Shown: positions 2,228 through 20,691 of the stretch, piece by piece
How the letters are laid out: every line of letters starts with the position of its first letter
Position numbering within the stretch: position 1 is the stretch's first letter
DNA from: Candidatus Woesearchaeota archaeon
GTDB taxonomy: Archaea > Nanobdellota > Nanobdellia > Woesearchaeales > GW2011-AR9
Reading direction: 5' to 3'
Assembly: GCA_013331635.1 (NCBI GenBank)
Contig: DUFZ01000034.1
Span: forward strand, 7,315-52,052
Length of the DNA: 44,738 nucleotides
Made by a program: the position numbers and the translations under genes
Notes under the pieces: generated by a model
Database searches by the model: none
What the model was told of the DNA's origin: nothing
What the model saw: only the letters and a program-made list of their open reading frames with translations

Positions 2228-2650
2228 ATGGCTATACCATCTCATGAGGAGCAAATTCGGCAGAAGTATGCGCGGTTTCAGCAGCTGCAGCAGCACATTG
2301 AGCAGATCTCCGCGCAAGTGGAGCAGATGAACCAGCAGCAGGAGGAATTGGAGATATCCAAGAACGCGGTGGCGGAACTGGGCAATACTGCCCCTGATGA
2401 AGAGATATTAGCGCCCATTGCCAACGGTATTTTTTTCAAAGCTAAATTGATGGACACCCAACGATTCGTGATTAATGTGGGCTCGAATGTTACGGTGGAA
2501 AAAAGCGTTTCGGAAGTGGTGGATTTACTTCAGAAAGAACAGGAGAAAATGACGGCAAGGATTACAGAAGCTTCCGCTATTCTGGAACAATTAAGCGAAC
2601 AGGCCTTGAGGATCTATAAGGAAGTGGAGAAACATGTTCAGCAAACTTAG
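2228..2650 (+). CDS. pfdA: Prefoldin subunit alpha
   Basis: 140 aa. It has the prefoldin-alpha arrangement: an N-terminal coiled-coil helix rich in Gln/Glu (about 5-55), a central beta-hairpin region with LAPIANGIFFKAKL and VGSNVTVEKS, and a C-terminal coiled coil. It would form the alpha2-beta4 hexamer that hands unfolded proteins to the thermosome. A TATA-like CTTATAAAAA lies around 2198-2207 and GAGGAG just before the ATG. The last 17 bases overlap the start of ftsY. The pfdA-ftsY order is common in archaea and supports both calls. Confidence 0.92.
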   Translation: MAIPSHEEQIRQKYARFQQLQQHIEQISAQVEQMNQQQEELEISKNAVAELGNTAPDEEILAPIANGIFFKAKLMDTQRFVINVGSNVTVEKSVSEVVDLLQKEQEKMTARITEASAILEQLSEQALRIYKEVEKHVQQT

Positions 2651-4589
2651 GGATAAACTGAAGGGCGCACTGTCAATCTTTTCCCGCAAGACCGAGGAAG
2701 AGGCAGTAGAGAAAAAAGCAGAGCAAGTTCTTGAAAGACCAGTGGTTAAGGAAAAGGTTGAGGAGAATAAACCAAAAGTAGAAAGTAAGAAACCAATTTT
2801 ACCTCACCTTGAGAAAAAGGAGAAAGAAGCACCTTTTACACATAAGAAAGTTGAGGGAAAAAAGAAAGAAACTGTCCAGCCAAAGAACATTGAAAAGGCA
2901 GAAAGGGAAAAAATAGAAATTCAGCCCAAAAAAAATGAAGAGAAAAAAGAGATTCCAAAAAAAGAAAAAATTAAAGGAATTAAAATTACCTATTTTGTTC
3001 ATGGTACTACTACTGATAATGAGCAAGGCCTTTGCACGGGATGGAACCCGGGGAAGCTATCGGAAGCAGGCAGGCAACAATCCATACAGCTTAGAAACCT
3101 TATCGGCAAGGAAGAGTTTGATGTTATTTTCTGTTCTGACTTACAGCGAGCGGTGGATTCGGCAAGATTGGCTTTTGCCAAAGACCCCTATAAGATTGTT
3201 CCTGACCAACGGCTTCGGGAATGTAATTACGGGGAACTCAACGGGCAGGACGAAGCAAAAGTAAAAATTGATGTAACCAAAAGGATCTATCAGCCCTTTC
3301 CACAAGGGGAGAGTTATCATCAGGTAGAACTGCGGGTAGCTGACTTTCTCAATGAAATCTGGAAGCCTCATTACGGGAAACATATTGCTATTGTCGCTCA
3401 CCAGGCGCCGCAATTAGCGCTCGAAGTTTTATTGAAAGGAAAAACTTGGGAACAAGCCTTCAAAGAGGATTGGAGGAATACCAAGAACTGGCAGCCAGGC
3501 TGGGTATATTGGATGGAGCAGGAAGTGAAGGTGAGTGAAGTTCCTGCAGTGCTTGAAGAAGAAAAAAAACCTGAATCAAAATCTGGTTTCTTTGGGAAAT
3601 TCAAAAAAACTTTTACTTTCAAGAAAGAAGAAGCTAAAGCGCCCGAACCAGTGGCAGTTGAAGAGCCAACAGCGGAGCCTAAACTTGCTGAAAAGGAAAT
3701 AGAACAGGAAGAACCGGGCTTCTTTCAGAAAATCAAGCAGACCATTACGACTAAGACTATTTCTGCTGAAAAGTTTGAGGAGTTGTTCTGGGATTTAGAG
3801 CTGGCACTGCTGGAAAATAATGTGTCGGTGGAAGTGATTGACAAAATTAAAATTGATTTGAAGAGCGAGCTGGTCGATAAGCCCCTGCCTCGGGAGGTGG
3901 AAACAAAAATTATGCAAACCTTGACCAGGACTTTAAAGGAAATCTTGTCCTATGAACCAGTCGATATTCCAGCATTAATCCGAAACCAGCAGAAGAAGCC
4001 GTTCATTATTGCTTTCTTTGGCATTAACGGGACGGGAAAGACGACTTCTATCGCCAAGCTGACGCATTATTTACAGCAGCGGAAAATTTCGGTGGTATTG
4101 GCAGCCTGTGATACCTTTCGGGCAGCAGCAATACAGCAATTGGAAGAGCATGCGGACAAGCTCAAAGTTAAGATGATCAAGCATGATTATGGCTCTGATT
4201 CAGCGGCAGTAGCCTTTGATGCGGTGAAATATGCGGAAAAGAATAAGATTGATGTGGTGATGATCGACACTGCCGGGCGGCTGCATAGCAATACTAACTT
4301 AATGGAGGAATTGAAGAAGATCATTAAGGTGACTCAACCGGACTTAAAGATTTTTGTGGGAGAAAGCATTACCGGGAATGACTGCATTGAGCAGGCGAGG
4401 AAGTTTAATGAGCTGGTAGAGATGGATGGGGTGATCTTAACTAAAGCTGACGTGGATGAGAAAGGCGGTGCGCCTTTGTCTATTTCATATACGATTAAGA
4501 AGCCGATATTATTTTTAGGAGTGGGGCAGCGCTATGAGGATTTGGAAGAGTTTGATGCCGACGTAATTATGGAAAGGTTGGGATTGTGA
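2634..4589 (+). CDS. ftsY: SRP receptor FtsY with an inserted histidine-phosphatase domain
   Basis: 651 aa, nearly twice the usual archaeal FtsY. Residues 1-115 are a Lys/Glu-rich linker. Residues about 117-300 form a histidine phosphatase (phosphoglycerate-mutase-like) domain: H123 in FVHGTTTDNE, the SDLQRA..SARLA block, the REC..GELNG glutamate, and a second histidine H256 in IVAHQAP. The Arg of the usual RHG motif is Val122. A second charged linker (about 300-360) leads to a complete NG GTPase: GINGTGKTT from about residue 463, DTFRAAA about 493, DTAGR about 545, TKAD about 603. Family knowledge: FtsY receives SRP-ribosome complexes at the membrane. The phosphatase partner is unexplained. 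The reading frame is continuous, with no in-frame stop, and overlaps pfdA by 17 bases. Confidence 0.93.
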   Translation: MFSKLRDKLKGALSIFSRKTEEEAVEKKAEQVLERPVVKEKVEENKPKVESKKPILPHLEKKEKEAPFTHKKVEGKKKETVQPKNIEKAEREKIEIQPKKNEEKKEIPKKEKIKGIKITYFVHGTTTDNEQGLCTGWNPGKLSEAGRQQSIQLRNLIGKEEFDVIFCSDLQRAVDSARLAFAKDPYKIVPDQRLRECNYGELNGQDEAKVKIDVTKRIYQPFPQGESYHQVELRVADFLNEIWKPHYGKHIAIVAHQAPQLALEVLLKGKTWEQAFKEDWRNTKNWQPGWVYWMEQEVKVSEVPAVLEEEKKPESKSGFFGKFKKTFTFKKEEAKAPEPVAVEEPTAEPKLAEKEIEQEEPGFFQKIKQTITTKTISAEKFEELFWDLELALLENNVSVEVIDKIKIDLKSELVDKPLPREVETKIMQTLTRTLKEILSYEPVDIPALIRNQQKKPFIIAFFGINGTGKTTSIAKLTHYLQQRKISVVLAACDTFRAAAIQQLEEHADKLKVKMIKHDYGSDSAAVAFDAVKYAEKNKIDVVMIDTAGRLHSNTNLMEELKKIIKVTQPDLKIFVGESITGNDCIEQARKFNELVEMDGVILTKADVDEKGGAPLSISYTIKKPILFLGVGQRYEDLEEFDADVIMERLGL

Positions 4590-15152: not shown

Positions 15153-18100
15153 TTATTCTACCACATCAAACCAAATTGAGAATTCTTCCTGTTTGACTTT
15201 AAATTGGGCGTGATGCTGATATTTCTTCAGGGGGTTAACGGAGACTACGTCGAGACCAAGTGCGCCTACCTTTTCTTGTATGTCTTCTGCGCGTTTTTCC
15301 AAGCGAGTTTTCATGACTGGACTTACCTTGAGAAAAAGCTCTATCCGATCCAATTTGCCCAGACCAGCATCTTTACGCGCCTGCTGGATATTGCGCATGG
15401 CTTCACGCAGATATCCCTCGGCTTCCAGCTCATCGTTCCGGTCCAGATTAAGGTAGATATACCCATACTTGAACTCTGCTTCCTGATAAGGGGAAGGAAC
15501 TTCATGCTGGATGATGAGCATCTCTTTGGTAATCTTTACTTCCTGCCCATCAACGGTGAAGATGTGGGCTTTATCGCGTTCTAGATGGCTGATGATAGTC
15601 TCCGGGCTGTCAATGGTGAGCTGGGTATGTATCTGCGGGGATAAGGGGCCGTAGACGGGACCTATTTTTCCATGATTCGGCTTGACGCTTACTTTAAGCC
15701 CGGGGAGGTATTCCTTAGTCTTTATCTGACGGGCATTGGCTTGCTTTTGGAGGATTTCCTGAATTTGCGGCATACTGGCAAGGACTTCTTTATCTTTAGT
15801 GATGATAACAATCTCCTGAAGCGGCCAGCGTAATCCTAATTTTACTTTATCCCGAGCGTTGTAGACAGCCTGAAGAATGTTCCCGGAAATAGCCATCTGC
15901 TGTTCGATGGCAGCATCAATCTTTTTGTCATCAGCAACCGGCCAGGGGTAATGGGAAATACTTACTTCTTTGAGCTGAAAGGCATCTTTGAGATTAAGGT
16001 ACATGGCTTCGGCAATAAATGGAGCAATAATACTGAGCATCTTGAGGCTTTCAAGGAGAACTTGGGCGATGGTGTACAAACAGACTTCTTTCTCTTGTTC
16101 TTCGCCCAGGGTGCTTTTGTCACGCACGATCTGGATGTAGGTGCGGCTGAGCTCTAAGAATAATTCTTCGAGCGGCATGATGATTTCATCCAGACGATAA
16201 GTTTCCAGAAGAGCGGTTACTTTCTTGATGGTGGAATGCAATTTGGAGAAGATGTATTTCTCTTCAAAGGCCAGCAAGCGGGACATACGGCTTTGGTTTA
16301 AGGTAAATGGATTCATTCCTTGCTCTTCTGCAAGATGGAGAAGAAACTTATGGACATTCCAAAAGATGTGCAGATACCTGCTCTTGGTTGCCGCTTCCTC
16401 CCAGCTAAAGTTGATATCTTCACCGGCAGTGGTCTGGGACATATAGTAGCGTAAGGTATCAGCGCCATGCTTTTCTATCAGTTCATTGGGGGAAATAATA
16501 TTACCTAAGGATTTAGACATTTTTACCCCGCTGGCATCATTGATGAAGCCGTGCATATAGACGCTCTTAAAGGAGGGACGATCAAAAGCCAGGAAGGACG
16601 CAATCAACAAGAGATTGAACCAGCCGCGAATTTGATCCTTGCCTTCGAGAATAAAATCAGCCGGGTATAGCTCATCAAACAGTTTCTTATTCTTCGGATA
16701 GCCCAAGGCATTCCAGGAGGCAGTGCCGGCATCAATCCAGACATCTAAGACATCCGGAATACGATGATAAACTTTTCCATCTTTCTGGATGATGATTTTA
16801 TCAATATCAGGAAGATGCATCTCTTTGACTTTCTGTTTCGATACTTTTTCCAGTTCTGCCAGGCTGCCGATGACGATATAATCACCGGTCTCTTTACATT
16901 GCCAGATGGGAACGGGGGTTCCCCAATATCGTTGTTTAGTAATGGAATTGTCACGTAAATTTTCCAGCCAGGAGGTAAAAGCGTTTTTGCCTCCAAGGGG
17001 ATTCCAATAGATGGATTCATTGGCTTTCAGCAATTTATCTTTAAGGTCTTCTACCTTGAAGAACCATTGTTTGGTAGTTCGGAAAATGACCGGCTGATGG
17101 CTTCGTTCGCCATGGGGGTATTCGTGGACATAGGGCTCTTTAGCAATCAAGACACCAGCTTCATCGATAGCTGCGATGAATTTTTTGTCATCGAGTTTCG
17201 CGCGCAAACCGGTGAAAGGGCCGAAGTTTTCAAACAGGCCGGCTTCATCGACGCAGTTAAAAGGGGGAATGCCATACTGATGCCCGACTTCATAATCCTC
17301 GGGACCGCAGCCGGGAGCGCAATGGACCAATCCGGTTCCGGAAGAGGCATCAACGTATTCTGAGGAAAGGAGAACGGTAAATAAATTTTTATTTTTCTGT
17401 AAAGAGGGAGGAAGGAATTGGCTGATTGATAAGGGATGGAGATAGGATTTTCCTTCTAGATTTTTGCCGGGATATTTTTTTTTAATGGTATAGTGTTGCT
17501 GATTGGCTTTAGCCATGACTTCATTCAAACGGTCTTGGGCAAGTATCCACGTTTCGTTCCCCACCTCTACTTCAATGTAGCTTAGTTCAGGATTGGCCAT
17601 GATAGCTAAGTTTAAAGGAATGGTCCAGGGAGTGGTGGTCCAAATAAGAAAAAAAGTGTTGGATTTGCCTCTGAGAGGAAATTTCATATAGATAGAAGTG
17701 TCCTGGATGGTCTTGTACTCTAATTCATGTTTGGCAACGGCAGTCTGGGTTGCGGCATCCCAGTGCATGGTCCTAAGGCCCTGATACAGCCGTTTCTTTT
17801 TATGGGCTTGCTTAATGAGCCACCATTCTGCATCCATGAATTCTTTGCTGATGGGCTGGTAGGGATCAGTAAAGTCTAAAGTGGCTCCAAGACGAAGGAA
17901 GTCTTCATTCATCTTCTGCATCATTTCTGTACAGAAAGCGTGGCATTCTTTCATGAATTTTTTAAGGCCGAACTTTTCAATGTCTTCTTTGTTTTTCAAG
18001 CCCAGCTTCGCCATCACTTTCTGCTCGGTGGGCAGGCCATGCATATCGTAACCCATGCGATCCCATACCTTGAATCCACGCATTCGCTTGTATCTCAGAA

Positions 18101-18293
18101 TCATATCTTTTAATCCCATGTTCCAGGCATGGCCGAGATGAATATGCCCGGAGGTGTACGGGGGACCTTGTAGGAAGTAATAGTTGGGGCCTTTCTGGTT
18201 TTTGGCTCTCAGCTTATCCAGTACTTTCTTGGACTGCCAGTACTGGAGAACTTCTGGCTCTATCTTTTGAGAGTCGTAGACCGGAAACTTCAT
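15153..18293 (-). CDS. ileS: Isoleucyl-tRNA synthetase
   Basis: 1046 aa. The class I signatures are HLGH at 52-55 (GHIHLGHAWN) and KMSKS at about 591-595 (GVKMSKSLGNIISP). The editing domain is present (TWTTTPWTIPLN region). The C-terminal extension is long, as in archaeal/eukaryal IleRS. It charges tRNA-Ile with isoleucine. It is transcribed from just after the sigma-like gene (44-base gap), probably in the same direction of operon. It ends 4 bases from the palindromic element, so transcription runs into that hairpin. Confidence 0.96.
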   Translation of the reverse strand: MKFPVYDSQKIEPEVLQYWQSKKVLDKLRAKNQKGPNYYFLQGPPYTSGHIHLGHAWNMGLKDMILRYKRMRGFKVWDRMGYDMHGLPTEQKVMAKLGLKNKEDIEKFGLKKFMKECHAFCTEMMQKMNEDFLRLGATLDFTDPYQPISKEFMDAEWWLIKQAHKKKRLYQGLRTMHWDAATQTAVAKHELEYKTIQDTSIYMKFPLRGKSNTFFLIWTTTPWTIPLNLAIMANPELSYIEVEVGNETWILAQDRLNEVMAKANQQHYTIKKKYPGKNLEGKSYLHPLSISQFLPPSLQKNKNLFTVLLSSEYVDASSGTGLVHCAPGCGPEDYEVGHQYGIPPFNCVDEAGLFENFGPFTGLRAKLDDKKFIAAIDEAGVLIAKEPYVHEYPHGERSHQPVIFRTTKQWFFKVEDLKDKLLKANESIYWNPLGGKNAFTSWLENLRDNSITKQRYWGTPVPIWQCKETGDYIVIGSLAELEKVSKQKVKEMHLPDIDKIIIQKDGKVYHRIPDVLDVWIDAGTASWNALGYPKNKKLFDELYPADFILEGKDQIRGWFNLLLIASFLAFDRPSFKSVYMHGFINDASGVKMSKSLGNIISPNELIEKHGADTLRYYMSQTTAGEDINFSWEEAATKSRYLHIFWNVHKFLLHLAEEQGMNPFTLNQSRMSRLLAFEEKYIFSKLHSTIKKVTALLETYRLDEIIMPLEELFLELSRTYIQIVRDKSTLGEEQEKEVCLYTIAQVLLESLKMLSIIAPFIAEAMYLNLKDAFQLKEVSISHYPWPVADDKKIDAAIEQQMAISGNILQAVYNARDKVKLGLRWPLQEIVIITKDKEVLASMPQIQEILQKQANARQIKTKEYLPGLKVSVKPNHGKIGPVYGPLSPQIHTQLTIDSPETIISHLERDKAHIFTVDGQEVKITKEMLIIQHEVPSPYQEAEFKYGYIYLNLDRNDELEAEGYLREAMRNIQQARKDAGLGKLDRIELFLKVSPVMKTRLEKRAEDIQEKVGALGLDVVSVNPLKKYQHHAQFKVKQEEFSIWFDVVE

Positions 18294-18337
18294 AGATGGT
18301 AGTGAGAAAGCGGATATTTAAAAAGGTTTGGTGAAAG

Positions 18338-19552
18338 TTAGAGGTATTTCTCGAGAACCTGCCGGCGGGAAGGATGCATCAATTTGCCCAAAGAGTCTTT
18401 TTCTATTTGATGAATTCGTGCTTTTGAAACAGCCTGTACTTTCCCTATTTCTTCCAGAGTATAGGTTTGAGGATGCCCTATCCCAAAATGCATTCTCACT
18501 ACTTGTTCTTCACGTTGGCGCAGCGTGGAGAGAACTGATTCTACCGCACTTTCCAAAGGTGCCAATTCCTGGAGTTCAATACTTTTATCTGCTGGAATGA
18601 GGGTTTGATCTATTACCCTATCTTTCAAAGTAGGACTATCAGGATCGTTTGAGAACACGTTTTCATCCAAAGAAATATGGGTTCCGTTCATCAACGCGAT
18701 TTCTGTTCTGGCTTGAAATGCTTTGCTCTGCTGGCCTAGGCCTAAATGTTGTGCCATCTCAAAGTCTGTTGGTTCGCGCCCTAACTCTTCCATCAGTCTA
18801 GATTGAGCTTGAAAGTAGTGCCTCTTCTCTTTTGAAGCTTTCCTTGATAAACTGGTAGCACTAGAATTTTCGGCAACTACTTTAAACATAGCTCCTTTAA
18901 TCGGCCACCTGAGCATCGAACCAAAGTTCTTTTCCTTCCGATAATCAAATCTATCAGCAACCCGTAATAATCCTTCCATGCCTGCCTGTACCAGATCATC
19001 AAAACTAGCTCCCCATAAATATTCCTCCACCAAAGGATGCACTTCCTGAGCGTACTTAAAGACCCTTCCAAAATAAGGGTTAACTAACTGCTCATTATCT
19101 TTTCCTTGCCGAATACAAGCCCGGTCTATTTTTAATATCTTTTCTTCTAGTTGGGCAACACGCTGTTGATATTCTTCAGTTTGGCCATTCATCCCCCTTT
19201 GTAAAGCCAATTCAACTTTATCTTTTTCCTGCTGGAGATGAAGCCGTAGATTTTGGGCGGCAGCACGGGTATATGACCTCGACATCTGATAACAAGTTAA
19301 ATCCATCAGTTTATCCCAATCGGCCCTTATCTCATTCATTTTTGAAACATAGGGAGATCTGCTATAGAGGGCTTCTTTATAGAAATCTATCATTTCCGGC
19401 TGTTGGGAGCTCTGAAGCTGAAAAAGCAAATTTCGATGTTCTGCCTCAAAGGACTTGCCAATCTCTACTTCTTTTTCACGGCTCAGCAACTCCGGAGAAC
19501 CAGCCCGATATCTATCCCTAATGTCGGGCATAAGAAAATCTTGAACCACCAT
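18338..19552 (-). CDS. Bacterial-type sigma-70-like factor
   Basis: 404 aa with all conserved sigma-70 regions in order. Region 1.2: DIRDRYRAGSPELLSREKEVE (split by one residue step; about 10-40). A helical insertion occupies about 60-150. Region 2 (about 155-230): ASFDDLVQAGMEGLLRVADRFDYRKE and FGSMLRWPIKGAM. Region 3: MEELGREPTDFEMAQHLGL. Region 4 (about 340-404): LRQREEQVVRMHFGIG, then YTLEEIGKVQAVSKARIHQIE and HPSRRQVLEKYL. Promoter-contact positions differ from E. coli: the WW pair is W216-P217, Y430 is Met, Q437 is Gly, T440 is Phe, and TRERIRQIE is SKARIHQIE. The gene itself has an archaeal TATA box (19571-19580) and archaeal neighbours. It may have been acquired from bacteria and retuned. 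Whether it binds archaeal RNA polymerase is unknown. Confidence 0.92.
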   Translation of the reverse strand: MVVQDFLMPDIRDRYRAGSPELLSREKEVEIGKSFEAEHRNLLFQLQSSQQPEMIDFYKEALYSRSPYVSKMNEIRADWDKLMDLTCYQMSRSYTRAAAQNLRLHLQQEKDKVELALQRGMNGQTEEYQQRVAQLEEKILKIDRACIRQGKDNEQLVNPYFGRVFKYAQEVHPLVEEYLWGASFDDLVQAGMEGLLRVADRFDYRKEKNFGSMLRWPIKGAMFKVVAENSSATSLSRKASKEKRHYFQAQSRLMEELGREPTDFEMAQHLGLGQQSKAFQARTEIALMNGTHISLDENVFSNDPDSPTLKDRVIDQTLIPADKSIELQELAPLESAVESVLSTLRQREEQVVRMHFGIGHPQTYTLEEIGKVQAVSKARIHQIEKDSLGKLMHPSRRQVLEKYL

Positions 19553-19570: not shown

Positions 19571-19580
19571 TGCTATAAAA
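19571..19580 (-). promoter_or_regulatory. TATA box of the sigma-like gene
   Basis: On the minus strand CTTTTTATAG lies 19-28 bases before the ATG at 19552. Allowing about 25 bp from TATA to the transcription start, the message would be leaderless or nearly so. This shows that the sigma-like gene is itself served by the ordinary TBP/TFB-type promoter of its neighbours. Confidence 0.55.
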
Positions 19581-19699
19581 AGATATCGTTAGGAAATTTT
19601 GTACAGTTGGCTTTAGGTGGTGGAATATCCTTAGGTATAATTTCTAGATGCGGGAGAGAATTAACCATTTTACTTAATTTATAGAAAGGTTTGAATACC

Positions 19700-20464
19700 T
19701 TATCTAAAAGCCCCCTCTACTGATTCAGACGGAGCAGGCTCGGATACTTTCTCTTTCAATAGAATCACGTTCCCCCGGCCTTTTTTGACCCGTTCAATTC
19801 TGCCTTTGTGCTCTAGCTCGGTTAAAATCAGGCTTACCTTGGCTTCCGAAAGATAGAGCATTTCTTTTCGCAGTTCCTTTTGGGTGATGCGCCCTTGGTG
19901 CCTTTTGATAATCTCCAGAGCGTTATCAAGATATCCGGGCTCTTTAGCAAGCTCTTCTTGATGCTGCTCAATGGTTTTATGGCTTTCGGCTTTTATTTTT
20001 CGGCGGAAGAAGGGGAGAGAGCCGTATTTCTTTCGAGCTCGATAAATGCGATAGAGAGCAAAGAGGACAATGAGGCTTATGAGGGTGTAGCGCCACCAGT
20101 TTTGAGGAAGAGTTGATTCTTCCGTGAAGTAATCCTGCGTGGTTTCATTCCAGAGGTCTTCTTCCTCACTTACCCCGGGCAATAAGAACAAGTCAACGAC
20201 ATACTCGCCGTCGCTGATGATATTGATGTTTTCCAAGACTATTGTATCTTCTTTTTGGGCGGTGAGGGTGTATTTTCCTAAGGCCAGCGTGAAGATATAG
20301 GAACCATCCTTAGCTAGGAATTTCTGCTGGGGCTGGCTGTCAACGCTCACTAAAACGTCCGGCTCGAGCTGAAGATGATCGTTGTAGATACTACCGTGGA
20401 TGGTAGCAGCGGAGACGGAGTAGAGAGATAGCAATAATAATACCAAAGCTGACAGATATCTCAT
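19700..20464 (-). CDS. Membrane-anchored winged-helix regulator with extracellular beta domain
   Basis: 254 aa. A signal peptide (MRYLSALVLLLLSLYSVSAA) leads to an extracellular carboxypeptidase-regulatory-like domain (about 21-100; VLVSVDSQPQQKFLAKDGSY), then a membrane helix (YTLISLIVLFALYRIY), and a cytoplasmic winged helix (ITQKELRKEMLYLSEAKVSL then ILTELEHKGRIERVKKGRG). The topology is that of a one-component membrane sensor acting directly on DNA. It is the first gene downstream of nothing obvious and sits beside the sigma-like factor, which makes a functional link worth testing, but the two are not overlapping. Confidence 0.78.
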   Translation of the reverse strand: MRYLSALVLLLLSLYSVSAATIHGSIYNDHLQLEPDVLVSVDSQPQQKFLAKDGSYIFTLALGKYTLTAQKEDTIVLENINIISDGEYVVDLFLLPGVSEEEDLWNETTQDYFTEESTLPQNWWRYTLISLIVLFALYRIYRARKKYGSLPFFRRKIKAESHKTIEQHQEELAKEPGYLDNALEIIKRHQGRITQKELRKEMLYLSEAKVSLILTELEHKGRIERVKKGRGNVILLKEKVSEPAPSESVEGAFR

Positions 20465-20691
20465 ATTTGGACTTAATCGTCCTTATTTTAAAAAGATATC
20501 GAAAGGAAAGGCTCTGTCCTAAATCTCGCTTTGCTCGACCGCCACGAGCTTCTCGCCTCTCGCTTAGGCAATCGCAGGCGCTCATTCCCGTAGGGAGCTT
20601 CCCCTTTTCGCGCTTGATGATGCTCTCGAAGAGGCTCAACTTTATGCTCATTGTGGACTTTTTCTACAGAGCCAGGGCTTCCTGCAGAATT
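20465..20691. other. Non-coding stretch with a GC-rich block
   Basis: About 227 bases without a convincing gene. The part at 20520-20640 is unusually GC-rich with several short self-complementary words (CGAGC, GAGGCGAG). A 15-mer, CTTCTCGCCTCTCGC, at 20549-20563 recurs exactly at 44689-44703. Open frames across it give biased Arg/Ser sequences and look non-coding. It may be a structured RNA or a dispersed repeat. Confidence 0.35.

Follow-up and report, generated by a model that had tools for sequence, protein, structure and literature searches.

Sigma factors and the TBP/TFB pair are regarded as separate transcription initiation systems of Bacteria and Archaea. Bacterial-like sigma factors have reportedly been encountered by single-cell genomics in archaeal genomes of other lineages, in work of Rinke and colleagues from 2013. 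Here, we analyzed a stretch of 44,738 nucleotides from a Candidatus Woesearchaeota archaeon (GenBank assembly GCA_013331635.1, contig DUFZ01000034.1, positions 7,315 to 52,052; hereafter the window) that encodes a sigma-70 family protein, P0001, and we describe the identity of this protein, the conservation of its locus, the promoter element it shares with a neighboring gene, and the contact residues it has retained or lost. Sigma-70 proteins of DPANN archaea were reported by Castelle et al. (2021, PMC8204110) to be "particularly prevalent in Woesearchaeota," and mis-binning was excluded for the Woesearchaeota proteins; that survey found neither an anti-sigma factor nor a regulator for them.

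P0001 represents the same phenomenon as fam00359, the DPANN/Woesearchaeota sigma-70 family of that study, which was likewise not mis-binned and for which TBP, TFB, and TFE are also expected. The likeness drawn here is one of phenomenon. Unlike the present analysis, the part of the paper drawn on here describes no conserved locus and no residue analysis. The presence of sigma factors in Woesearchaeota is already known; what is newly described here is the locus. Of the 49 genomes in the family, 35 carry a homolog of P0001, as do 51 of the 193 in the order, and together with the prevalence published in 2021, these counts do not bear out the word "rare," which the preliminary description of this DNA had used for such genes. 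The literature searched, which gave little beyond Castelle et al., contained no account of a conserved locus, of a candidate regulator or control element, or of a split between canonical and divergent sigmas.

A conserved sigma locus between mwHTH and ileS

In the window, the sigma gene lies between ileS and the gene for a membrane-anchored winged-helix protein, which we name mwHTH, all on one strand:

18338..19552, minus strand: sigma-70 family protein P0001, 404 aa, ATG start (open reading frame, Pfam, PDB, AlphaFold2/Foldseek, and NCBIfam)
19700..20464, minus strand: mwHTH, 254 aa, with a signal peptide, an extracytoplasmic beta-sandwich, a transmembrane helix, and a cytoplasmic winged helix (DUF7343)
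15153..18293, minus strand: ileS, isoleucyl-tRNA synthetase, 1046 aa, the conserved downstream neighbor of the sigma gene

To survey the locus, ileS was mapped across the family genomes. In 13 genomes (the window, L085, L095, L104, L178–L182, and L184–L187), a sigma gene immediately precedes ileS and has the same orientation, with two sigma genes at this position in L085, L095, and L181; in L176 and L183, one gene separates sigma from ileS. The order mwHTH–sigma was found in about 12 family genomes; mwHTH directly precedes ileS without a sigma in nine (L188–L191, L193, L194, L196, L201, and L202), and in L080, L081, and L106, between one and three sigma genes come after it, at a distance from ileS. 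Because each genome carries a handful of sigma genes among approximately 1000 genes, the probability that these genes adjoin by chance is negligible. Matching arrangements occur in independent GenBank contigs of Candidatus Woesearchaeota metagenome-assembled genomes, and the recurrence of the same neighbors in so many independent assemblies excludes a misassembly. The synteny with ileS that the preliminary description had looked to for support is therefore present, without the misjoin it had considered. Across the family, mwHTH shows about 50–60% identity and is far better conserved than the sigmas, whose identity is about 20–35%; the predicted local distance difference test score (pLDDT) of its AlphaFold2 model is 79.

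The space between mwHTH and ileS is filled by unrelated open reading frames in L174 and L175 (genomes G025 and G030), in the slot that sigma occupies in other genomes, which suggests that it is also a variable slot of changing gene content. Tandem sigma pairs or triplets were seen in L080, L081, L085, L095, L181, L030, and L004. We also observed fusions of sigma region 4 to the C-terminal domain of the bacterial RNA polymerase alpha subunit (alpha-CTD; PF03118, E 7.8e-25), one of them at an ileS locus (L183:4995-6206, genome G036) and others in L107:9112-10302 (genome G010), L272, L273, and L277; alpha-CTD matches over the cut-off occur in 4 of the 49 genomes of the family.

A tree of 90 sigmas, bacterial ones included, was mostly unresolved, with archaeal and bacterial rows interleaved and the window copy on a long branch. 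A single archaeal clade, when forced, was not rejected (approximately unbiased test, p-AU 0.24). Forcing the sigmas of the mwHTH/ileS locus into one clade raised the log likelihood by 6.6 over that of the free search and was not rejected either (p-AU 0.58). The history of the locus is compatible with one acquisition followed by tandem duplication, fast divergence, and loss. A viral origin was considered and discarded, as no relatives were found in IMG/VR and the phage and plasmid matches were bacterial sigma-70 proteins at 22–34% identity.

Domains, fold, and contact residues of P0001

Three sigma regions were located in P0001:

18887..19012, minus strand: core of sigma region 2, aa 181–222, the part concerned with the clamp and the -10 element (Pfam and residue map)
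18737..18814, minus strand: sigma region 3, aa 247–272, weak and under the Pfam cut-off (Pfam)
18380..18535, minus strand: sigma region 4, aa 340–391, a helix-turn-helix (Pfam and residue map)

Region 2 (PF04542) matched with an E-value of 1.4e-5 and 25.2 bits against a Pfam cut-off of 24 (28.7 bits in a second search) and region 4 (PF04545) with 2.1e-9 and 37.2 bits against 24.1, so that the profile check proposed in the preliminary description returned sigma-70 matches above the cut-off; region 3 (PF04539) stayed below it (E 2.4e-4, 21.6 bits against 25.3). The sigma70-ECF superfamily model of NCBIfam scored 65.4 against a cut-off of 42.9. The best solved relatives in a PDB sequence search were SigA/RpoD proteins (E 4e-29, residues 181–403). 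An AlphaFold2 model built from 17 sequences reached a mean pLDDT of 71, with about 80–95 within regions 2 and 4, and its top Foldseek match was E. coli sigma70 in initiation complexes (E 2.4e-11); with a whole-chain root-mean-square deviation of more than 20 Å, the model supports the domains and not their arrangement. These comparisons of sequence and predicted fold confirm that the open reading frame encodes a true bacterial-type sigma-70 protein.

The claim that all sigma regions occur in order proved slightly generous: regions 2 and 4, a weak match to region 3, and both hallmark segments are present, but region 1.2 (PF00140), matched by 31 of 81 sigmas, has no Pfam match in P0001. The N terminus resembles region 1.2 by eye, and one sigma model, MzaA of the MZA anti-phage system, aligns residues 16–404; it is the only NCBIfam model listed that covers nearly all of the protein. 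An identity as the MZA defense sigma was nevertheless rejected, since P0001 scores 106.6 bits where the cut-off is 800 and no MZA partner genes were found among the neighbors scanned. P0001 shares with bacterial sigma-70 factors such as SigA/RpoD and FliA the order of regions 2, 3 (here a weak match), and 4 and the predicted fold, and its best PDB and NCBIfam matches are among them; unlike them, it has substitutions in the residues that read the -10 and -35 elements, belongs to a host whose polymerase is archaeal and has another clamp surface, and falls far under all equivalog cut-offs, including those for group 1 (RpoD/SigA, TIGR02393; 120.9 against 354) and the FliA/WhiG subfamily (TIGR02479; 91.4 against 189.6).

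The sigmas were also mapped residue by residue onto E. coli sigma70. Where the E. coli protein has LDQENM facing the clamp, YFTYWW for melting, QTR for the -10 element, HE for the extended -10, and RERQ for the -35 element, the window copy has DDQAML, KFSMWP, GFK, KK, and KAHQ. P0001 thus keeps the equivalents of D403, Q406, F427, and W433 and is changed at E407 and N409. The word "complete," used of it in the preliminary description, needs to be qualified because the residues that read the -10 and -35 elements are largely substituted. Every residue checked is kept in several sigmas at the order and family levels, among others those of L031 (G117), L034 (G048), L027 (G177), L026 (G125), and L010 (G015), and the complete sigma70 contact sets of these relatives suggest selection on sigma function.

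Promoters and genome setting

TATA-like boxes in the window cluster 25–34 nt before start codons (31 of the 64 matches within 80 nt), a spacing like that of leaderless archaeal genes, and one is present for each of the three genes of the locus:

19576..19588, minus strand: CGATATCTTTTTA element of the sigma promoter, at the position of the TFB-recognition element (BRE) and TATA box, the TATA lying ~27 nt before the ATG
20489..20501, minus strand: mwHTH promoter, with the same CGATATCTTTTTA element as the sigma promoter
18312..18326, minus strand: separate TATA-type promoter of ileS, CCTTTTTAAATATCC

Since ileS has its own promoter, sigma and ileS need not share one transcript. The exact 13-mer occurs three times in the 1.317-Mb genome and its reversed form not at all; the third copy (L253:1501-1957, G000:C40) precedes, by 37 nt, the start codon of a gene for an EamA-like membrane protein of 139 aa. 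Among relatives, a CGATA-T-run was found in 14 of 33 mwHTH promoters, 0 of 43 ileS promoters, and 1 of a further 305 upstream regions, and in 1 of 25 sigma promoters, the one being that of the window. We read the CGATA-T-run as a candidate mwHTH-linked control element that the sigma gene shares in this genome. A wider CGATATC regulon beyond mwHTH and sigma was considered and rejected: the element is absent from the EamA-like orthologs whose promoters were read, and its exact copies across the family number 13, barely above the 8 of a reversed-pattern control.

The contig that contains the window is archaeal and 94.6 kb long, and it belongs to a genome of 1.32 Mb that is 95% complete and 0.09% contaminated, and the GC content of the sigma gene, 42.6%, equals that of the window. 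The archaeal context of the gene, including its archaeal TATA promoter, was correctly recognized in the preliminary description; that the gene is probably used, as also proposed there, is an inference. The genome has a single, archaeal, Rpb1-type Rpo1 gene with split Rpo2-type genes adjoining; with one Rpb1-type gene, no bacterial polymerase was found in the genome for the sigma to serve. A second sigma (L079:3862-5328, G000:C55; 488 aa) is closest to RpoH (sigma32) models (E 8.7e-39), and its contact residues are strongly altered. Nearly all relatives have a weak Sigma70_r4 cross-match in a protein of ~310–325 aa that is probably TFB, none being listed for this genome (G000). Elsewhere in the window, positions 2634-4589 encode an unusual 651-aa fusion of a histidine-phosphatase (aa 123–283) and an SRP54/FtsY-type GTPase (aa 364–649).

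Possible functions of P0001

The reading we favor, at about an even chance, is that P0001, a divergent sigma, serves the archaeal RNA polymerase as an alternative initiation factor and is switched by mwHTH. A sigma of bacterial ancestry would have been present in this family of Woesearchaeota for so long that its position between mwHTH and ileS became fixed. Its gene has a TATA promoter of its own, from which the ordinary TBP/TFB system would transcribe it, and mwHTH, probably a cell-envelope sensor, would most likely control both the sigma gene and its own, because both promoters carry the same element at the BRE position, to which it may bind. Region 2 would then dock on the clamp coiled coil of Rpo1, a site otherwise used by TFB and TFE, and regions 2 and 4 would read promoters unlike the -10/-35 consensus. 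The expected functional analog is TFB, also an initiation factor that binds the clamp; unlike TFB, P0001 has no TFB domain by Pfam and is a sigma-70 protein in sequence.

Several observations weigh against this proposal. The clamp coiled coil encoded in this genome aligns without gaps with that of E. coli beta' but carries I, L, and H at the positions of R275, E295, and A302, residues with a role in sigma binding, and docking would therefore need a changed interface. P0001 has lost the equivalents of Y430, W434, Q437, T440, R441, R584, E585, and R588, and without this DNA-reading set it cannot read a consensus -10/-35 promoter in the known way; its promoters, if any, would differ from TTGACA/TATAAT. 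Moreover, the CGATATCTTTTTA element is not conserved in the EamA-like orthologs whose promoters were read, and exact copies in the family also stand at promoter positions of other genes, so what the sigma and mwHTH promoters share could instead be a core-promoter variant of general use.

Next in rank, possible although clearly less probable, is a regulator of sigma descent that binds DNA but has ceased to initiate transcription: regions 4 and 2 would bind DNA or the clamp and, as a competitor, block or recruit TFB-dependent initiation. The loss of most melting and -10 residues from the window copy fits this view, as do an archaeal clamp without the bacterial sigma contacts and the alpha-CTD fusions, in which sigma parts are reused outside a whole factor. 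Regions 2, 3, and 4 are nonetheless still ordered and foldable, the equivalents of D403, Q406, F427, and W433 are retained, and many homologs are canonical, all of which speaks against such a regulator.

We consider it unlikely that the mwHTH–ileS gap is an insertion hot spot whose sigmas are diverse cargo of mobile elements, viruses, or defense islands, outside host regulation. Such an origin would agree with the unrelated genes in the gap of L174 and L175, the high divergence of the sigmas, and MzaA as the nearest defense model, but sigma is by far the commonest occupant of the gap, no relatives were found in IMG/VR, neither an integrase nor MZA partners were found among the neighbors scanned, and a single origin of the locus sigmas is not rejected. 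Far less credible still is an action of some Woesearchaeota sigmas on the bacterial RNA polymerase inside a bacterial partner cell: several relatives do keep the beta'-facing LDQENM, and the sole archaeal clamp examined, that of this genome, lacks the bacterial counterparts, yet P0001 has no signal peptide and keeps only part of the beta'-facing residues. A contaminating or misjoined bacterial contig, suggested by a bacterial gene type within an archaeal genome, is already refuted by the shared synteny, and the low contamination, the matching GC content, and the exclusion of mis-binning for Woesearchaeota sigma-70 by Castelle et al. point the same way.

Now that the locus proves to be conserved and offers both a candidate regulator and a candidate operator, what had been the bare occurrence of a sigma in DPANN archaea becomes concretely testable, from the binding of the sigma to the archaeal RNA polymerase and of mwHTH to CGATATC to the archaeal use of bacterial start factors. 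We suggest, more tentatively than the initiation factor itself, that two initiation systems may share one archaeal polymerase in these organisms: TBP/TFB for housekeeping and tandemly duplicated, bacterial-derived sigmas for particular sets of genes, the part of the anti-sigma factor being taken by a winged-helix protein tethered to the membrane.
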